Shown here piece after piece: positions 15,066 through 30,666 of a DNA stretch of 33,247 nucleotides. Numbering within the stretch: position 1 is the stretch's first letter; the number at the start of each line of letters is the position of its first letter. The notes beneath the pieces are model-generated. The model had not been told where the DNA came from and made no database searches. It saw nothing but the letters and a program-made list of their open reading frames with translations. Location of the stretch: contig JABMNR010000098.1 of NCBI GenBank assembly GCA_013203465.1, positions 1 to 33,247 on the forward strand. Reading direction: 5' to 3'. The DNA comes from Alphaproteobacteria bacterium. Its GTDB lineage: Bacteria > Pseudomonadota > Alphaproteobacteria > Thalassobaculales > Thalassobaculaceae. A program made the translations under genes and the position numbers.

Positions 15066-15218
15066 CGGTCCCTCCTCATCTATCCGCATAAGGATGAGAG
15101 CGGATCGTCTTCCTGAAAACCGTCAATTTTTCGAGGCTACGGATCAGGTTTTGTTATGCGTGGACGCGCGCCGCCGACCGTGCTTCGCTCTCCCTCTTCA
15201 CTATTGGGAGTCCGGTTC

Positions 15219-16037
15219 ATGTTTCGCGCCAATCACTTGAAAGCCACCATCGAAGCGGGCGAGCCCGCGCTTGGGGTTTGGCTGCAACTCGGGGAGCCGT
15301 CGATCGCCGAAATCGCCAGTCTTGCCGGCTACGATTTCCTGATCCTCGACAACGAACACGGGCCCGCCTCGATCGAAACCACGATCCAGTGCATGCGCGC
15401 CGCCCAGGCCGGCCGCGCCACCGTCATGATCCGCGCAGCAGGCCAGGACCCGGACTACTTGAAGCGCATCCTTGACGCGGGAGCCGAGGCGCTGATGATC
15501 CCGATGGTGGAAACCGCCGAGCAGGCCAAGGCCGTGGTCGCCGCCTGCAAATACCCGCCGGAGGGCCGTCGCGGCTATTCGGCGCCGACAGTGCGGGCAT
15601 CCGGCTATGGCACCGACCCGGCGTACGCCGCCAAGGCCAACGACACCTTGTTCATCTGCATCCAGATCGAAAGCGCCAAGGCGATCGCCAACGCCGGCAA
15701 GATCGCGGCGGTGCCCGGCGTCGACATGGTGTTCATCGGCGTTGCCGATCTGGCCGGCGATCTCGGTCTGCTCGGTCAGTTGGGCCACGCCAAGGTCTCC
15801 GCCCAGATTGCCAAGGCCGAGATGGCGGTCAAGAAGGCCGGCAAGCCACTGGGCACCATCCCGCGACCGGGCCATACGCTTAACGATCTGGCCGCCGAGG
15901 GCTATCGCCTGGTTGCCGGTACCGCCGACGCCGCCGCCCTGCGGCTGACGTTCGAGGCCGACGTGAAGGCCTTCGCGCCAAGCAAGGTGAAGGGCGCGCG
16001 CAAGGACAAGAAACCCGGCAAGAAGAAAAAGAGTTAA
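15219..16037 (+). CDS. HpcH/HpaI family aldolase
   Basis: The product is a 272-aa metal-dependent class II pyruvate aldolase, cleaving 2-keto-4-hydroxy acids to pyruvate and an aldehyde. Key residues of the family are present: H47 in DNEHGP, R72 in VMIRAAGQDP, metal ligand E151 in IQIESAKAI and D177 in FIGVADLAGDLG. The frame is open from 15156, but the ATG at 15219 has GGGAG at 15206-15210. The last 18 residues are mostly Lys with Gly/Ala/Pro and lie beyond the usual end of the fold. The true substrate is not predictable here. Confidence 0.9.
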   Translation: MFRANHLKATIEAGEPALGVWLQLGEPSIAEIASLAGYDFLILDNEHGPASIETTIQCMRAAQAGRATVMIRAAGQDPDYLKRILDAGAEALMIPMVETAEQAKAVVAACKYPPEGRRGYSAPTVRASGYGTDPAYAAKANDTLFICIQIESAKAIANAGKIAAVPGVDMVFIGVADLAGDLGLLGQLGHAKVSAQIAKAEMAVKKAGKPLGTIPRPGHTLNDLAAEGYRLVAGTADAAALRLTFEADVKAFAPSKVKGARKDKKPGKKKKS

Positions 16038-16079
16038 GGAAATTTAACCAAAACCGCATGCAACACTGGAAGAACTGTC

Positions 16080-16108
16080 TTGACTAAATCGCCTAATAGA
16101 CGAATATT
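16080..16108 (+). promoter_or_regulatory. Sigma70-like promoter before the 141-aa gene
   Basis: TTGACT (16080-16085) is followed after 17 bases by AATATT (16103-16108), inside an AT-rich gap between the aldolase and the next gene. The -35 is good and the -10 moderate (4 of 6 consensus bases). It would drive the unknown gene that starts at 16140. Confidence 0.45.
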
Positions 16109-16139
16109 AAAGCCTCGAATTTAGCCATTAGGAAACGCC

Positions 16140-16565
16140 ATGGGATCCGCTGCCGAAAATAGGATCGCGCAACTTTGCACCAACCCGCGGTTGGCGCTGG
16201 ATTCCACGCCGTACATTCATTTGCCGGGCGAACTCCAGTTGACGATGCTCGAATGGATGCAGCAGGAAGCCAGCGGCTTTCCCAACGTCATGAGCAATGC
16301 CGTGTTGATCGGCCGCCGGCCGTTCATCTTCGCCACCGATGGGCTGAAGCTGACGAACGAGAAATACCTGCACGACCAGTTCGAGGAGCCGGCGGTCGCC
16401 ATCGCCATGGCGAAGGAGCTGATGGAATTGGTCGGTGTGGTCGATCAACCCTTGGCCATGCGCTTTCAGGTGCGCCGCGCCACGGAGGTGCGCGCGCATT
16501 TCGTGATTCTGCCGGTGATGGTTTGTGGGCGGGAGTTTCAAATTCTCCGAGTTGCCGGATGGTGA
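16140..16565 (+). CDS. Hypothetical protein, 141 aa
   Basis: I do not recognise the family. The protein is soluble, with no signal peptide or membrane segment. Its GC content and codon use match the surrounding chromosome, and the ATG is preceded by TAGGAAA and a promoter-like sequence. A central stretch reads SNAVLIGRRPFIFATDGLKL, and the C-terminal half alternates hydrophobic and basic residues (MRFQVRRATEVRAHFVILPV). It ends just before a GC-rich remnant and then an AT-rich island, so the original 3' end could have been changed. Confidence 0.6.
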   Translation: MGSAAENRIAQLCTNPRLALDSTPYIHLPGELQLTMLEWMQQEASGFPNVMSNAVLIGRRPFIFATDGLKLTNEKYLHDQFEEPAVAIAMAKELMELVGVVDQPLAMRFQVRRATEVRAHFVILPVMVCGREFQILRVAGW

Positions 16566-16646
16566 TGCGCCCGGACCACGTTTTCCGCCGCGGCGGCGAT
16601 CGTCTCGCCGTTGACCATGCTGAGTTACGAAAGTGGTGAGGATAGT

Positions 16647-16928
16647 ATGTCCCGTGCTTTTGATAGAACGTTTACCGATGACACGATCAAGATCGGTGTT
16701 AAATACCATGGTAACAACTTTGTTGTTGGGCCAGACAACGAAATACTTAAATTAAAAAAACTGTGCTATGACCCATTTTCTTTTAGCCTGAAAAATCCAT
16801 ATGACATTTCCGTGACTGATATATGGTCTATTCTAGATAAAAGAAAAAAATCTAAAGAAAGTATATTTGGACTAATACATATCATTAACTGTTCGTTTGA
16901 TGACCCTAGAAATTTTGAGTTCGAATAA
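16647..16928 (+). CDS. Small AT-rich unknown gene, 93 aa
   Basis: I do not recognise the product. It is a small, charged, soluble protein with KLKKLCYDPFSFSLKNPYD in the middle and a lysine cluster LDKRKKSKES, ending in acidic EFE. The coding DNA is strongly AT-rich (AAA, AAT, TTT, ATA codons), unlike every neighbour, so it was probably acquired. The frame is open from 16611, but the ATG at 16647 has GAGGA at 16638-16642. The next small gene starts 6 bases after its stop. Confidence 0.55.
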   Translation: MSRAFDRTFTDDTIKIGVKYHGNNFVVGPDNEILKLKKLCYDPFSFSLKNPYDISVTDIWSILDKRKKSKESIFGLIHIINCSFDDPRNFEFE

Positions 16929-16934
16929 TACGGA

Positions 16935-17210
16935 ATGTCTTCAAAAATAGAATGGAAAAGGGATTTTTCCAAGAAAAGAGTCGGTTCATCGAACATTCGT
17001 GCTTTAGTTGATTTTGGCTCTGCCGAATATGAAAGAGCCAAAAAACTAGGCGTGCCTGACTTGACAGAAGTAAAATATGAGCTCGGTAGCGATATTATTT
17101 CATATCGTAAGTTGATGGTGCCTTTGTCCACGAGTGGGTGCGAGGTCACGCATCTTTTGGTCGGGATGGCGATGCAAGAGACTGAGATCATTGGCGGCGC
17201 GTCTCAATAA
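16935..17210 (+). CDS. Small AT-rich unknown gene, 91 aa, probably chimeric 3' end
   Basis: I do not recognise the product. The first 55 or so residues (KIEWKRDFSKKRVGSSNIRA, then VDFGSAEYERAKKLG) are encoded by AT-rich DNA like the gene just upstream. From about 17105 the base composition returns to the chromosomal level, and this frame runs antisense to the end of the GNAT-like gene for 111 bases. The C-terminal 35 residues are therefore probably not original: the gene looks cut by an insertion junction. Only a CGGA next to the ATG could serve as ribosome-binding site; it may be coupled to the gene upstream. Confidence 0.45.
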   Translation: MSSKIEWKRDFSKKRVGSSNIRALVDFGSAEYERAKKLGVPDLTEVKYELGSDIISYRKLMVPLSTSGCEVTHLLVGMAMQETEIIGGASQ

Positions 17211-17864
17211 ATGATCCCCCGGATACTCGGCCGAATAGATCAACTCCCGTTGGCCTTTCGGGGCAAACCAGCCGTCGATTAGCACGCGACAGCTTTTAGC
17301 ACCGTATTTCAACGGCAGACCCTTGTCGTGGATATCCGAGAAAATAACGCTGGCAATCCAGTCGACGCCCCATTCTATTTGCGACCATGCCTGATTAAGG
17401 CGGGGCACGAGCCACGAGAGACCGATCCGGCGATAGTCTGGATGCACCCACAGGCCGCCACTGTGCGCGAGCAGACCAGCGGGACCGGATTCTGATATTA
17501 AAATGTCGATCGGCTCTTCGCCTGGCGGTTTGCACCATAGCAACCCCTGCCGTACGTACTCATAGTACCCTGTGTTCGCCTCAATCAGCTTCGACGCCGC
17601 GACGGCTACCACCTGACCACGCGCCTCAACGCACAGCCAGAAGGCGTCGAGCGCCGAGCCCGTTTGGTCGGGGTCAAAGCTTGGATTGACGCCATTCGTG
17701 GCGGGAGCGTGTCGTAAGATCGACGCCCACTCGCGCATGTCTGTTCGGATCGAAAGTTTGAAGCCCTCCCGCAAAAGCGATGCCCCAGCGGCAGCGGCAT
17801 ATGCGTCCAGGATGGAATTGGTGACATCGACCGGGTGATGGCGAGATACCGATGTGACGGGCAT
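17100..17864 (-). CDS. GNAT-like N-acetyltransferase family protein
   Basis: The product is 254 aa. The segment GGLWVHPDYRRIGLSWLVPR (136-155) resembles the acetyl-CoA-binding motif A of GNAT enzymes (a V-x-P-x-[YW]-[RQ]-R-x-G pattern). ALDAFWLCVEARGQVVAVAA fits the preceding central beta strands. The substrate is unknown. GGAGGT lies 5 bases before the ATG, so the start is good. The last codons lie at the edge of the AT-rich island and overlap the small plus-strand gene, so the C-terminus may be altered. The call is moderately sure; a strongly diverged member is possible. Confidence 0.6.
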   Translation of the reverse strand: MPVTSVSRHHPVDVTNSILDAYAAAAGASLLREGFKLSIRTDMREWASILRHAPATNGVNPSFDPDQTGSALDAFWLCVEARGQVVAVAASKLIEANTGYYEYVRQGLLWCKPPGEEPIDILISESGPAGLLAHSGGLWVHPDYRRIGLSWLVPRLNQAWSQIEWGVDWIASVIFSDIHDKGLPLKYGAKSCRVLIDGWFAPKGQRELIYSAEYPGDHLLRRAANDLSLLHRHPDQKMRDLAPTRGQRHHQLTI

Positions 17865-17929
17865 GACCTACCTCCATGAACCTACTGGTTAAGAGACTAG
17901 TCATCGAGCCGTGTGTAACGCGAGTCTGT

Positions 17930-17959
17930 TTGCTGCTGAAGGTTGTTCCTCGGCAGCAA
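17930..17959 (-). terminator. Hairpin downstream of the nucleoside operon
   Basis: TTGCTGCTGA pairs with TCGGCAGCAA (10 bp including one G-T pair) around a 10-base loop, 48 bases after the last gene of the minus-strand operon. No T-run follows on the minus strand. It may be a terminator or a 3' RNA-end stabiliser. Confidence 0.4.
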
Positions 17960-18007
17960 TAATATATGAACGGGTAAAACCAAGGAGCATGAGCGCGTTT
18001 AAATTGA

Positions 18008-18517
18008 TCAGCCGACGCGGCGTCGGCCGCGCTGACCCCGGCTAGCGAGACCGATCAAGCCGCTGACCGCGGCATGCAACAGCCAGCCAACCGCCAAACC
18101 GATCGCTCCCCAACGGGGATCGAGGGTCAGGTTCGGCGTCCATTGCGCGTAGGCGTTCTCAAGGATGGCGCGATCATGATCCAGGGCGATGACCACCGGG
18201 CGTTTCCACGGGCCCGCTACCGCCAATGCACCCTGCAGGGCCGCCAATTGTTCAACGCGCGCGACCACGCCATCCACCGCCTGAGCGGTGGCGCGGACAG
18301 CCCCGTCATCGCTATCATGCAAGCGAAATCGATAGTCCGCGAAGGATAAGTCGGCGCGCGCCGCCGCCCGCTCAAACTCGCCGAGGGTGCGGCGCGCTTC
18401 ATCCAAAGCACCACCAAGCCGCTGGGCATAGGCGTCGGCGAAGTTGGGGATTTGCGAGCCGAGAACGGCACCTCCCAATACGAACAACAGAAAAACAAGG
18501 TCACGGACGGCACTCAT
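18008..18517 (-). CDS. DUF2937 family membrane protein
   Basis: The product is a 169-aa protein matching the DUF2937 pattern. It has an N-terminal membrane segment, then SQIPNFADAYAQRLGGALDE, a helical middle region, and a second hydrophobic segment near the C-terminus (WGAIGLAVGWLLHAAVSGLI) before a basic tail. The function of the family is unknown. It starts one base after the stop of the PhyH-like gene and so is the last gene of the nucleoside salvage operon. It may have been placed there without sharing the function. Confidence 0.78.
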   Translation of the reverse strand: MSAVRDLVFLLFVLGGAVLGSQIPNFADAYAQRLGGALDEARRTLGEFERAAARADLSFADYRFRLHDSDDGAVRATAQAVDGVVARVEQLAALQGALAVAGPWKRPVVIALDHDRAILENAYAQWTPNLTLDPRWGAIGLAVGWLLHAAVSGLIGLASRGQRGRRRVG

Positions 18518-29736: not shown

Positions 29737-30666
29737 TCAGTCTGCTGAGGCCGTCATCCGTCTGAGCTTGGACGACAGTTGCATCAACAGAATGCCACCG
29801 ATCACCATGCCGCCGCCGATCGCCTGGGCGCTTGTCAGCGCCTCGCCATACAGCAGGAACGCGCCGCCGATCGCCGCCACCGGTTGCAGGTTGTTGAGGA
29901 TCGAGCTGGTCTCGACGCCGATGCGCGGGATTGCGGCGTAGTACAGCGGGATCGAGCAGCCCTGAAGCAGCACGACCCCTAGGGCCCCGAGCCATCCGGC
30001 GGTGGTCGTTGGCGCTGTAAAGCCGACGATCGCCAGCACCACGACGGTCAGCACGCACGCCGCCACCAGCGCCATGTGGAACATCACCACCAACGGATCA
30101 CGTCCGCCCATCACCCGGCCGATCCAGATGACATTGATGGCGCAGGCCACCCCCGCCGACAGCCCGAAGAACAGGCCGAGCGGGTCCAGGTCGTCGAATT
30201 CGACACCCAGCATGACGCCAAGCCCGCCGAACGCGATCAAAAAGCCCGAAAACCGCAAAAATCCAGGCCAGCGCCGGTCGAGGATCGCGGTGAACACGCT
30301 GACCAACGGCGGATAGATGAAGAACAGCAGCGCCGCCACGCCGACCGGAATGTATTTCACCGCGCCGATGTTGCCGAAAAACATATGGGCCAACAGGGTG
30401 CCAAGCCCCAGACAGTTCAGCCAGACCCACCACTCGACCCGGAGCGACCGGTCAGACGCCAAACACCATCCGCCAACCAACAGCACCACGAACCAGGCCC
30501 GCACCATGGCGATCGACTGTCCGTCGGTACCGCCCTCGAAGGCGATACGGGCAACCGCGATGGCGAGGCCAAGGCCGAGCGAGGCGAGGACCGCGAACCC
30601 GAAGCCGGTCAACCGATACCGCGCGGCCTCGACCTCGGTGTCAGATTCGGTCCCAGAAGGCGCCAT
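29737..30666 (-). CDS. DMT superfamily transporter (EamA type)
   Basis: The product is a 309-aa inner-membrane protein with about ten hydrophobic segments and two EamA repeats. The first repeat includes HMFFGNIGAVKYIPVGVAAL and LFFIYPPLVSVFTAILD. The second ends with ILNNLQPVAAIGGAFLLYGE. It is likely an exporter of unknown substrate. The frame is open from 30714. I chose the ATG at 30666, which overlaps the end of the epimerase gene by 26 bases. The start is uncertain because no clear ribosome-binding site is seen. Confidence 0.85.
   Translation of the reverse strand: MAPSGTESDTEVEAARYRLTGFGFAVLASLGLGLAIAVARIAFEGGTDGQSIAMVRAWFVVLLVGGWCLASDRSLRVEWWVWLNCLGLGTLLAHMFFGNIGAVKYIPVGVAALLFFIYPPLVSVFTAILDRRWPGFLRFSGFLIAFGGLGVMLGVEFDDLDPLGLFFGLSAGVACAINVIWIGRVMGGRDPLVVMFHMALVAACVLTVVVLAIVGFTAPTTTAGWLGALGVVLLQGCSIPLYYAAIPRIGVETSSILNNLQPVAAIGGAFLLYGEALTSAQAIGGGMVIGGILLMQLSSKLRRMTASAD

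Follow-up and report, generated by a model that had tools for sequence, protein, structure and literature searches.

A stop-interrupted PAS-like gene sharing 111 bp with a convergent putative GNAT acetyltransferase gene at an alphaproteobacterial locus

LuxI, the partner of the regulator LuxR, has a GNAT-like fold. In the "R2" topology, luxR and luxI are convergent and overlap by 2–79 bp, according to the excerpted text of PMC3386692. The locus described here resembles that arrangement in that a sensor-type gene faces a synthase-like gene and the 3' ends of the two overlap. It differs in its proteins and in the length of the overlap: the PAS-like protein encoded here is without a DNA-binding domain, the facing GNAT protein has no LuxI Pfam match, and PAS/GNAT overlaps are 64–222 bp long at 23 loci and 11 bp at one.

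Two other described cases are close to parts of this locus. Among 178 long convergent overlaps (more than 60 bp) in prokaryotes, 54 were classed as possibly real, and conservation was mostly limited to very close species, as far as the excerpt of that study goes (PMC2478687). The PAS/GNAT pair is like those cases in being convergent and in having both gene lengths conserved in orthologues, a criterion of that study; unlike most of them, its overlap persists between genera, at 30–48% identity of the GNAT proteins. MopJ of Caulobacter is, like the product of the PAS gene, a small single-domain PAS protein of Alphaproteobacteria (PMC4432633). The match of the present family to NCBIfam NF051868 is weak (1 of 16 members, E 0.0044), and the abstract of the MopJ paper, unlike the pair described here, mentions no convergent GNAT partner. 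A search of the open-access literature for a PAS/GNAT gene pair found no paper, judged by titles and the openings of abstracts.

The features of the locus are listed in Table 1. Positions refer to the window, which is the whole stretch of 33,247 nucleotides that was analysed; G, C and L numbers are our handles for the genomes, contigs and loci compared. Overall, the locus is likely to be a single stop-broken PAS gene in an inserted three-gene unit, sharing 111 bp with a GNAT gene. Its anatomy – one PAS gene, the unit and the overlap – is very probably correct, as judged by comparison of the sequence with those of relatives.

Table 1. Features of the three-gene unit and its flanks (positions in the window)
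Feature	Position	Strand	Remarks
HpcH/HpaI aldolase gene, left flank, intact	15156..16037	+	Pfam PF03328, E 1.2e-41; beside DUF2937 in relatives
Gene 1 of the unit, 141-aa protein UP	16140..16565	+	In BAL199, T. fulvum and G035 a full-length homologue immediately precedes PAS; broken homologue in G022
Gap between gene 1 and PAS, 81 nt	16566..16646		62% GC; where relatives have a gene of this kind, it mostly adjoins PAS directly
Gene 2, PAS-fold gene (predicted)	16647..17210	+	187 codons ahead of the final stop, including the in-frame TAA; the two "genes" of the preliminary description
In-frame TAA	16926..16928	+	At the place of the residue just before the conserved YG
ORF2, C-terminal half of the PAS gene	16935..17210	+	ATG 6 nt past the TAA; possible reinitiation
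Convergent overlap, 111 bp	17100..17210		In codon register; encodes the final 36 residues of both PAS and GNAT
Gene 3, GNAT acetyltransferase (putative), 254 aa	17100..17864	-	Full length; GGAGGT ribosome-binding site
DUF2937 gene, right flank, intact	18008..18517	-	Pfam PF11157, E 1.8e-30

The three-gene unit and its insertion site

The unit consists of the gene for UP (ca. 140 aa), then the PAS gene, then the convergent GNAT gene, and it fills the ca. 1.97 kb between 16037 and 18008. The two flanking genes, for the aldolase and the DUF2937 protein, are convergent neighbours in seven relatives, and in none of the seven is the PAS-GNAT unit at their junction. In alphaproteobacterium BAL199 they are 4 bp apart, with nothing between them. 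In G003, G005, G010 and G015 the distance is 283–474 bp, with a short ORF between. In Thalassobaculum fulvum (T. fulvum) they are 1.4 kb apart, separated by a 446-aa transporter-like ORF (L183:4768-6147), and in G022 the distance is similar to that in T. fulvum, roughly 1.4 kb between approximate ends. BAL199 and T. fulvum carry the PAS-GNAT unit on other contigs. These empty sites indicate that the unit either entered the site in the lineage of the window or left it in the other lineages; the former is simpler.

The preliminary description of this DNA had proposed a small insertion, made up of the AT-rich patch, that cut at least one gene. There is evidence of an insertion, with empty sites in relatives, for the whole unit of ca. 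1.97 kb and not for the AT-rich patch alone. No gene was cut – the GNAT gene is full length when compared with its relatives, and the aldolase and DUF2937 genes on either side are intact. Finding the same genes in relatives had been named in advance as an argument for an ancestral region. The PAS/GNAT pair is indeed present in relatives in the same arrangement, but at other genomic sites.

The aldolase/DUF2937 junction (16038–18007 in the window) holds different cargo among the relatives, and it may be a tolerated insertion site. A 10-bp direct repeat (16056–16065 and 18072–18081) brackets the unit. By our estimate about two such pairs are expected by chance in a region of this size, and the repeat was not accepted as a target-site repeat. 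There is no tRNA gene in the window.

At several loci outside the genomes named for gene 1 in Table 1, an ORF similar in size to that gene ends ca. 10 nt or less from the start of the PAS gene, and its likeness to UP is marginal at best (E 0.007 and worse). The upstream ORFs of L026, L030, L031, L033-L035 and L043 are very divergent, mostly ca. 135–150 aa long, and many have a hydrophobic end. Possibly these divergent ORFs and the one at 16140–16565 in the window form one fast-evolving family. UP was also considered as a second PAS domain and rejected, the hhalign probability being 0.65%.

One PAS gene, its stop codon and its base composition

The two small genes in tandem, 6 bases apart, of the preliminary description are two halves of one gene. 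The spacing had been given correctly (ORF1 ends at 16928 and the ATG of ORF2 is at 16935), and ORF2 does run into the antisense of the GNAT-like gene, the stop codon of which (17100–17102) is the right edge of the AT-rich island. However, ORF1 (16647–16928) and ORF2 are in one frame, their ATGs are 96 codons apart and a single TAA separates them, and relatives have one continuous ORF over both. Searches of each half against 98 genomes gave matches in 3 and 6 genomes, with the query genome included. In three copies in G004 (C142, C4, C48) and one in G014 (C409), a single ORF contains the counterparts of the two halves one after the other. The intact open frames in these two genomes are 176–198 aa long, and the PAS-fold gene in relatives encodes ca. 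170–200 aa. A profile built from 16 relatives and run against 385 genomes of the class detects the window copy in a single match that spans the one TAA; this profile has matches in 81 of the 385 genomes, many of them probably to members of the wider PAS family. Since both halves are continuous in relatives, the TAA does not mark a border between two genes; it is either damage to one gene, an unusual split of it or an artefact of the assembly.

The low GC content and the small size of the ORFs had also suggested a two-gene foreign insertion, such as a toxin-antitoxin, immunity or phage module. This is extremely unlikely: the relatives have a single gene here, the PAS/GNAT pair is conserved in the family, and the profile search gave no PHROGs hit and an Imm30 match (E 0.074, 13.6 bits) far below the cut-off of 27.

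The frame that contains the stop codon is otherwise open. Mononucleotide shuffles of the part of the PAS gene outside the overlap have a mean of 11.7 stops, and none of the 2000 has one or fewer; the real sequence has one. The openness of the split frame is therefore not due to chance. Decay with many stops was ruled out, as there is one stop only.

The window copy does have several signs of erosion. In a tree of the non-overlapping part of PAS, with the stop entered as X, its end branch is 0.93, compared to 0.40 for the sister copy (join 85/85), and its residue make-up is deviant. For GNAT the corresponding end branches are 0.46 in the window and 0.64 in the sister. The window PAS keeps 13 of the 18 columns that are conserved in at least 80% of the relatives, while the sister keeps 18 of 18; the other members keep between 13/23 and 18/19 of their conserved columns. 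Arg145, which is invariant in 16 relatives, is Lys in the window. The long branch, the deviant make-up, the lost columns and the Lys at 145, taken with the stop, favour a gene that is losing its function. A degenerate copy is accordingly the reading we prefer, with fair probability, over a split gene that still works or an error of assembly. With one stop in 187 codons and those 13 of 18 residues kept, the gene must have been selected for until a short time ago; simple decay alone therefore does not explain its 35% GC.

An appreciable, though lesser, chance remains with the reading in which the organism has an unbroken PAS gene and the TAA arose through an error in sequencing or assembly. In favour of it, the window comes from a draft genome (4.48 Mb, 238 contigs, 2.49% contamination), and PAS has just one stop, with the reading frame preserved before and after it. 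The doubled branch, the deviant make-up, the 13 of 18 columns and the replaced Arg145 are separate signs of erosion that speak against this. It is improbable that the gene works as a split gene, with termination at the TAA, a restart at the ATG 6 nt further on and assembly of the two halves into a PAS domain. The short distance from stop to start and the retention of most conserved residues in both halves are in keeping with it, but PAS is unsplit in every other member of the 16-sequence alignment, the restart ATG is preceded by a weak GGA only, and the stop replaces a residue – variable in the alignment, just before the conserved YG – that is inside the PAS sequence.

As to composition, the AT-rich island is confirmed by GC and codon usage: 16647–17099 has 35% GC and a GC3 of 0.32, relative to 64% GC for the window. 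The 453-bp stretch with the lowest GC in the window starts at 16658 (34%), and outside this region the minimum is 43%, reached at about 32.6 kb, where the contig ends. This contig end (32400–33247) is a second AT-rich stretch, with 44–51% GC and strong negative GC skew. In the region 30000–30600 the AT skew is very high (0.42–0.50), unlike the rest of the window.

Both edges of the island are positions at which coding changes. The left edge is the PAS start codon, and since the gap just before it is GC-rich the AT drift of PAS is not regional. The right edge is where GNAT coding begins, and GC goes up to 52% in the overlap. We infer that the DNA of the overlap is restricted by both proteins, and the remaining part of PAS by PAS alone. 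The AT-rich DNA is thus PAS coding sequence that is used by one protein alone, and it ends at the GNAT tail. Of the fourfold sites in the window PAS, 19 of 52 end in G or C, compared to 62 of 70 in UP and 83 of 118 in GNAT. This GC deficit is found at most of the loci compared – the non-overlapping part of PAS is GC-poorer than its surroundings at 15 of 17 loci, equal at one and richer at one. The extremes are the window (0.39 with the upstream extension included, against 0.64) and G004 (0.49 against 0.64).

The preliminary description had interpreted the edges as chimeric junctions. The sharp change in GC at both ends and the restriction of AT-rich codon usage to the PAS gene would fit a chimeric gene, the AT-rich 5' part of which had been swapped in by recombination with an AT-rich donor. 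This is very improbable, because the N-terminal part of PAS, its C-terminal part and GNAT all have their nearest relative in G004, the right junction coincides with the start of the double-coding stretch, and the G004 copy is also GC-poor (49%, with 64% in its surroundings). A sharp-edged AT-rich "island" can come from differing coding constraint, and not from a junction with foreign DNA.

The convergent PAS/GNAT overlap

There are 30 distinct loci in which both genes are found within ca. 2 kb. At 24 of these the genes are convergent and overlapping, at four they are convergent without overlap (Ferrovibrio and its kin L059, L063 and L064, and L037 at 1.5 kb), and at two they are on the same strand. 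In this count L050 and L058, which repeat L139 and L138, are each counted once with them; loci at which PAS gave no hit are excluded, as is the second GNAT copy at L042; and three loci (L029, L032, L037) have a broken GNAT, the C-terminal piece being used to measure the overlap at L029 and L032. The overlapping arrangement is kept in orthologues, as in a true long convergent overlap.

The length of the overlap is divisible by three at 22 of the 24 overlapping loci (72–222 bp). The overlaps of L044 (64 bp) and L061 (11 bp) are out of codon phase. According to the excerpted text of PMC2174442, 33% of convergent overlaps of at least 5 bp share the codon register, so the phase alone is unremarkable.

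Broken GNAT copies were observed elsewhere in the family (L032:4087-5214, L029:4526-5396, L037:3804-4640), each with a stop or frameshift. The second copy in BAL199 (L032) has a TAA in GNAT, while in G022 (L029) and at the third BAL199 locus (L037) GNAT is split between frames. The PAS-GNAT unit seems prone to breakage.

Selection on the overlap was examined in pairs of copies, 17 for PAS and 13 for GNAT, the latter being those with both copies whole. In close pairs there is almost no change at the middle codon position within the overlap, and change at third positions is mostly rarer there than in the rest of the gene. Four close pairs were picked from these after inspection, one or two per clade so that shared branches are not counted twice, and pooled; the independence of the branches is an assumption. 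In the pooled pairs, 19 of 90 GNAT-frame fourfold sites are changed in the overlap, compared to 174 of 341 outside (one-sided Fisher test, p = 1.7e-7). For PAS-frame fourfold sites the counts are 27 of 95 in the overlap and 91 of 235 outside (one-sided Fisher test, p = 0.049). One of the four pairs, G012/G031, has no drop at PAS fourfold sites (8/31 vs 17/72). The divergent pair of the window and G004 has the same trend in the overlap, less clearly. By these site counts, constraint on the PAS frame appears clear in the stretch shared with GNAT; for the GNAT tail, constraint in the overlap is probable but weak.

The openness of the antisense frame was considered as proof of selection and rejected. 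Under synonymous resampling the probability of a stop-free GNAT frame by chance is 0.07–0.89 over 14 loci, which makes its openness ordinary; what speaks for a selected GNAT tail is therefore the borderline p value of 0.049.

Predicted proteins and their proposed roles

The PAS fold was modelled on the nearest relative, L046 of G004. The AlphaFold2 model has a pLDDT of 84.5, and PAS/LOV chains head its list of PDB matches (best E 1.1e-3, probability 1.00, TMq 0.30–0.44). L046 is thus predicted to have a PAS fold, at modest scores. Weak matches to Pfam PAS_4 occur in three of the 16 close members (best E 0.0014); none of the 16 matches a Pfam HTH model, and none matches PAS_5 (PF07310) at E <= 0.5. 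The PAS_5 cut-off is passed only at the distant locus L068, by the PAS gene next to a GNAT relative (L068:1744-2673, 23 bits vs 22). At L068, two ribbon-helix-helix genes with PAS-profile matches (L068:1744-2673 and L068:3481-4293) are found on either side of one GNAT relative. The PAS-side gene that overlaps GNAT at this distant locus carries a ribbon-helix-helix DNA-binding domain, and so does the gene that passes PAS_5. These genes support a putative regulatory or sensory role for the PAS family.

The window GNAT protein is predicted to have the GNAT fold. Its model has a pLDDT of 87.8 and aligns to many GNATs with Z ca. 12 over residues ca. 28–232, including the NatE chain 4xpd_B (Z 12.1, rmsd 3.0, 159 residues). 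The putative acetyltransferase contains a conserved HxGGLWVHPxxRGxGLS stretch. In a Pfam scan of all 13 GNAT members at E <= 0.5, four families were matched – Acetyltransf_1, LAMTOR, Acetyltransf_7 and DUF6107 – and the autoinducer-synthase (LuxI) domain was absent from all 13. LuxI-type synthases are not among the chains listed in the fold comparison, which is therefore uninformative on this point. Searching the PDB by sequence with UP, PAS and GNAT gave weak hits only. GNAT relatives without a PAS neighbour exist, for example in Actinobacteria.

In the history that we propose for the window, the PAS gene would have drifted to AT-rich codons and to less conserved residues, and the stop codon would have been acquired recently, or would be apparent through an assembly error. 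Such a copy would be translated into a truncated protein or, should translation resume at the ATG 6 nt past the stop, into two halves. In relatives with an intact gene, the PAS protein may bind either a small ligand or another protein as its partner, and may work with the co-inherited GNAT, which would transfer an acyl group from acyl-CoA to a substrate. The overlap would tie the two genes together, in that few mutations could separate them without harm to one. Convergent transcription through the overlap could make PAS and GNAT antagonise each other.

A partnership of sensor and acyltransferase is a tentative proposal based on the genes and their arrangement, and a rather doubtful one. Going further, the three genes could be an undescribed signalling unit, in which GNAT would make an acylated small molecule or modify a protein, PAS would sense the result, and the overlap would keep both together through relocation and the repeated breakage of single genes. 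This is quite unlikely as a complete account. Such a unit would have a division of labour like that of LuxI and LuxR, on unrelated sequences.

The broken PAS copy is itself ordinary, and the noteworthy part is the conserved long antisense overlap. Long antisense overlaps of two real genes are rare and are usually confined to very close species. The PAS/GNAT family has a natural series of overlaps across genera, 11–222 bp long and nearly all in one phase, together with the non-overlapping Ferrovibrio pairs. With this series, the origin and upkeep of double coding become testable on one gene family.
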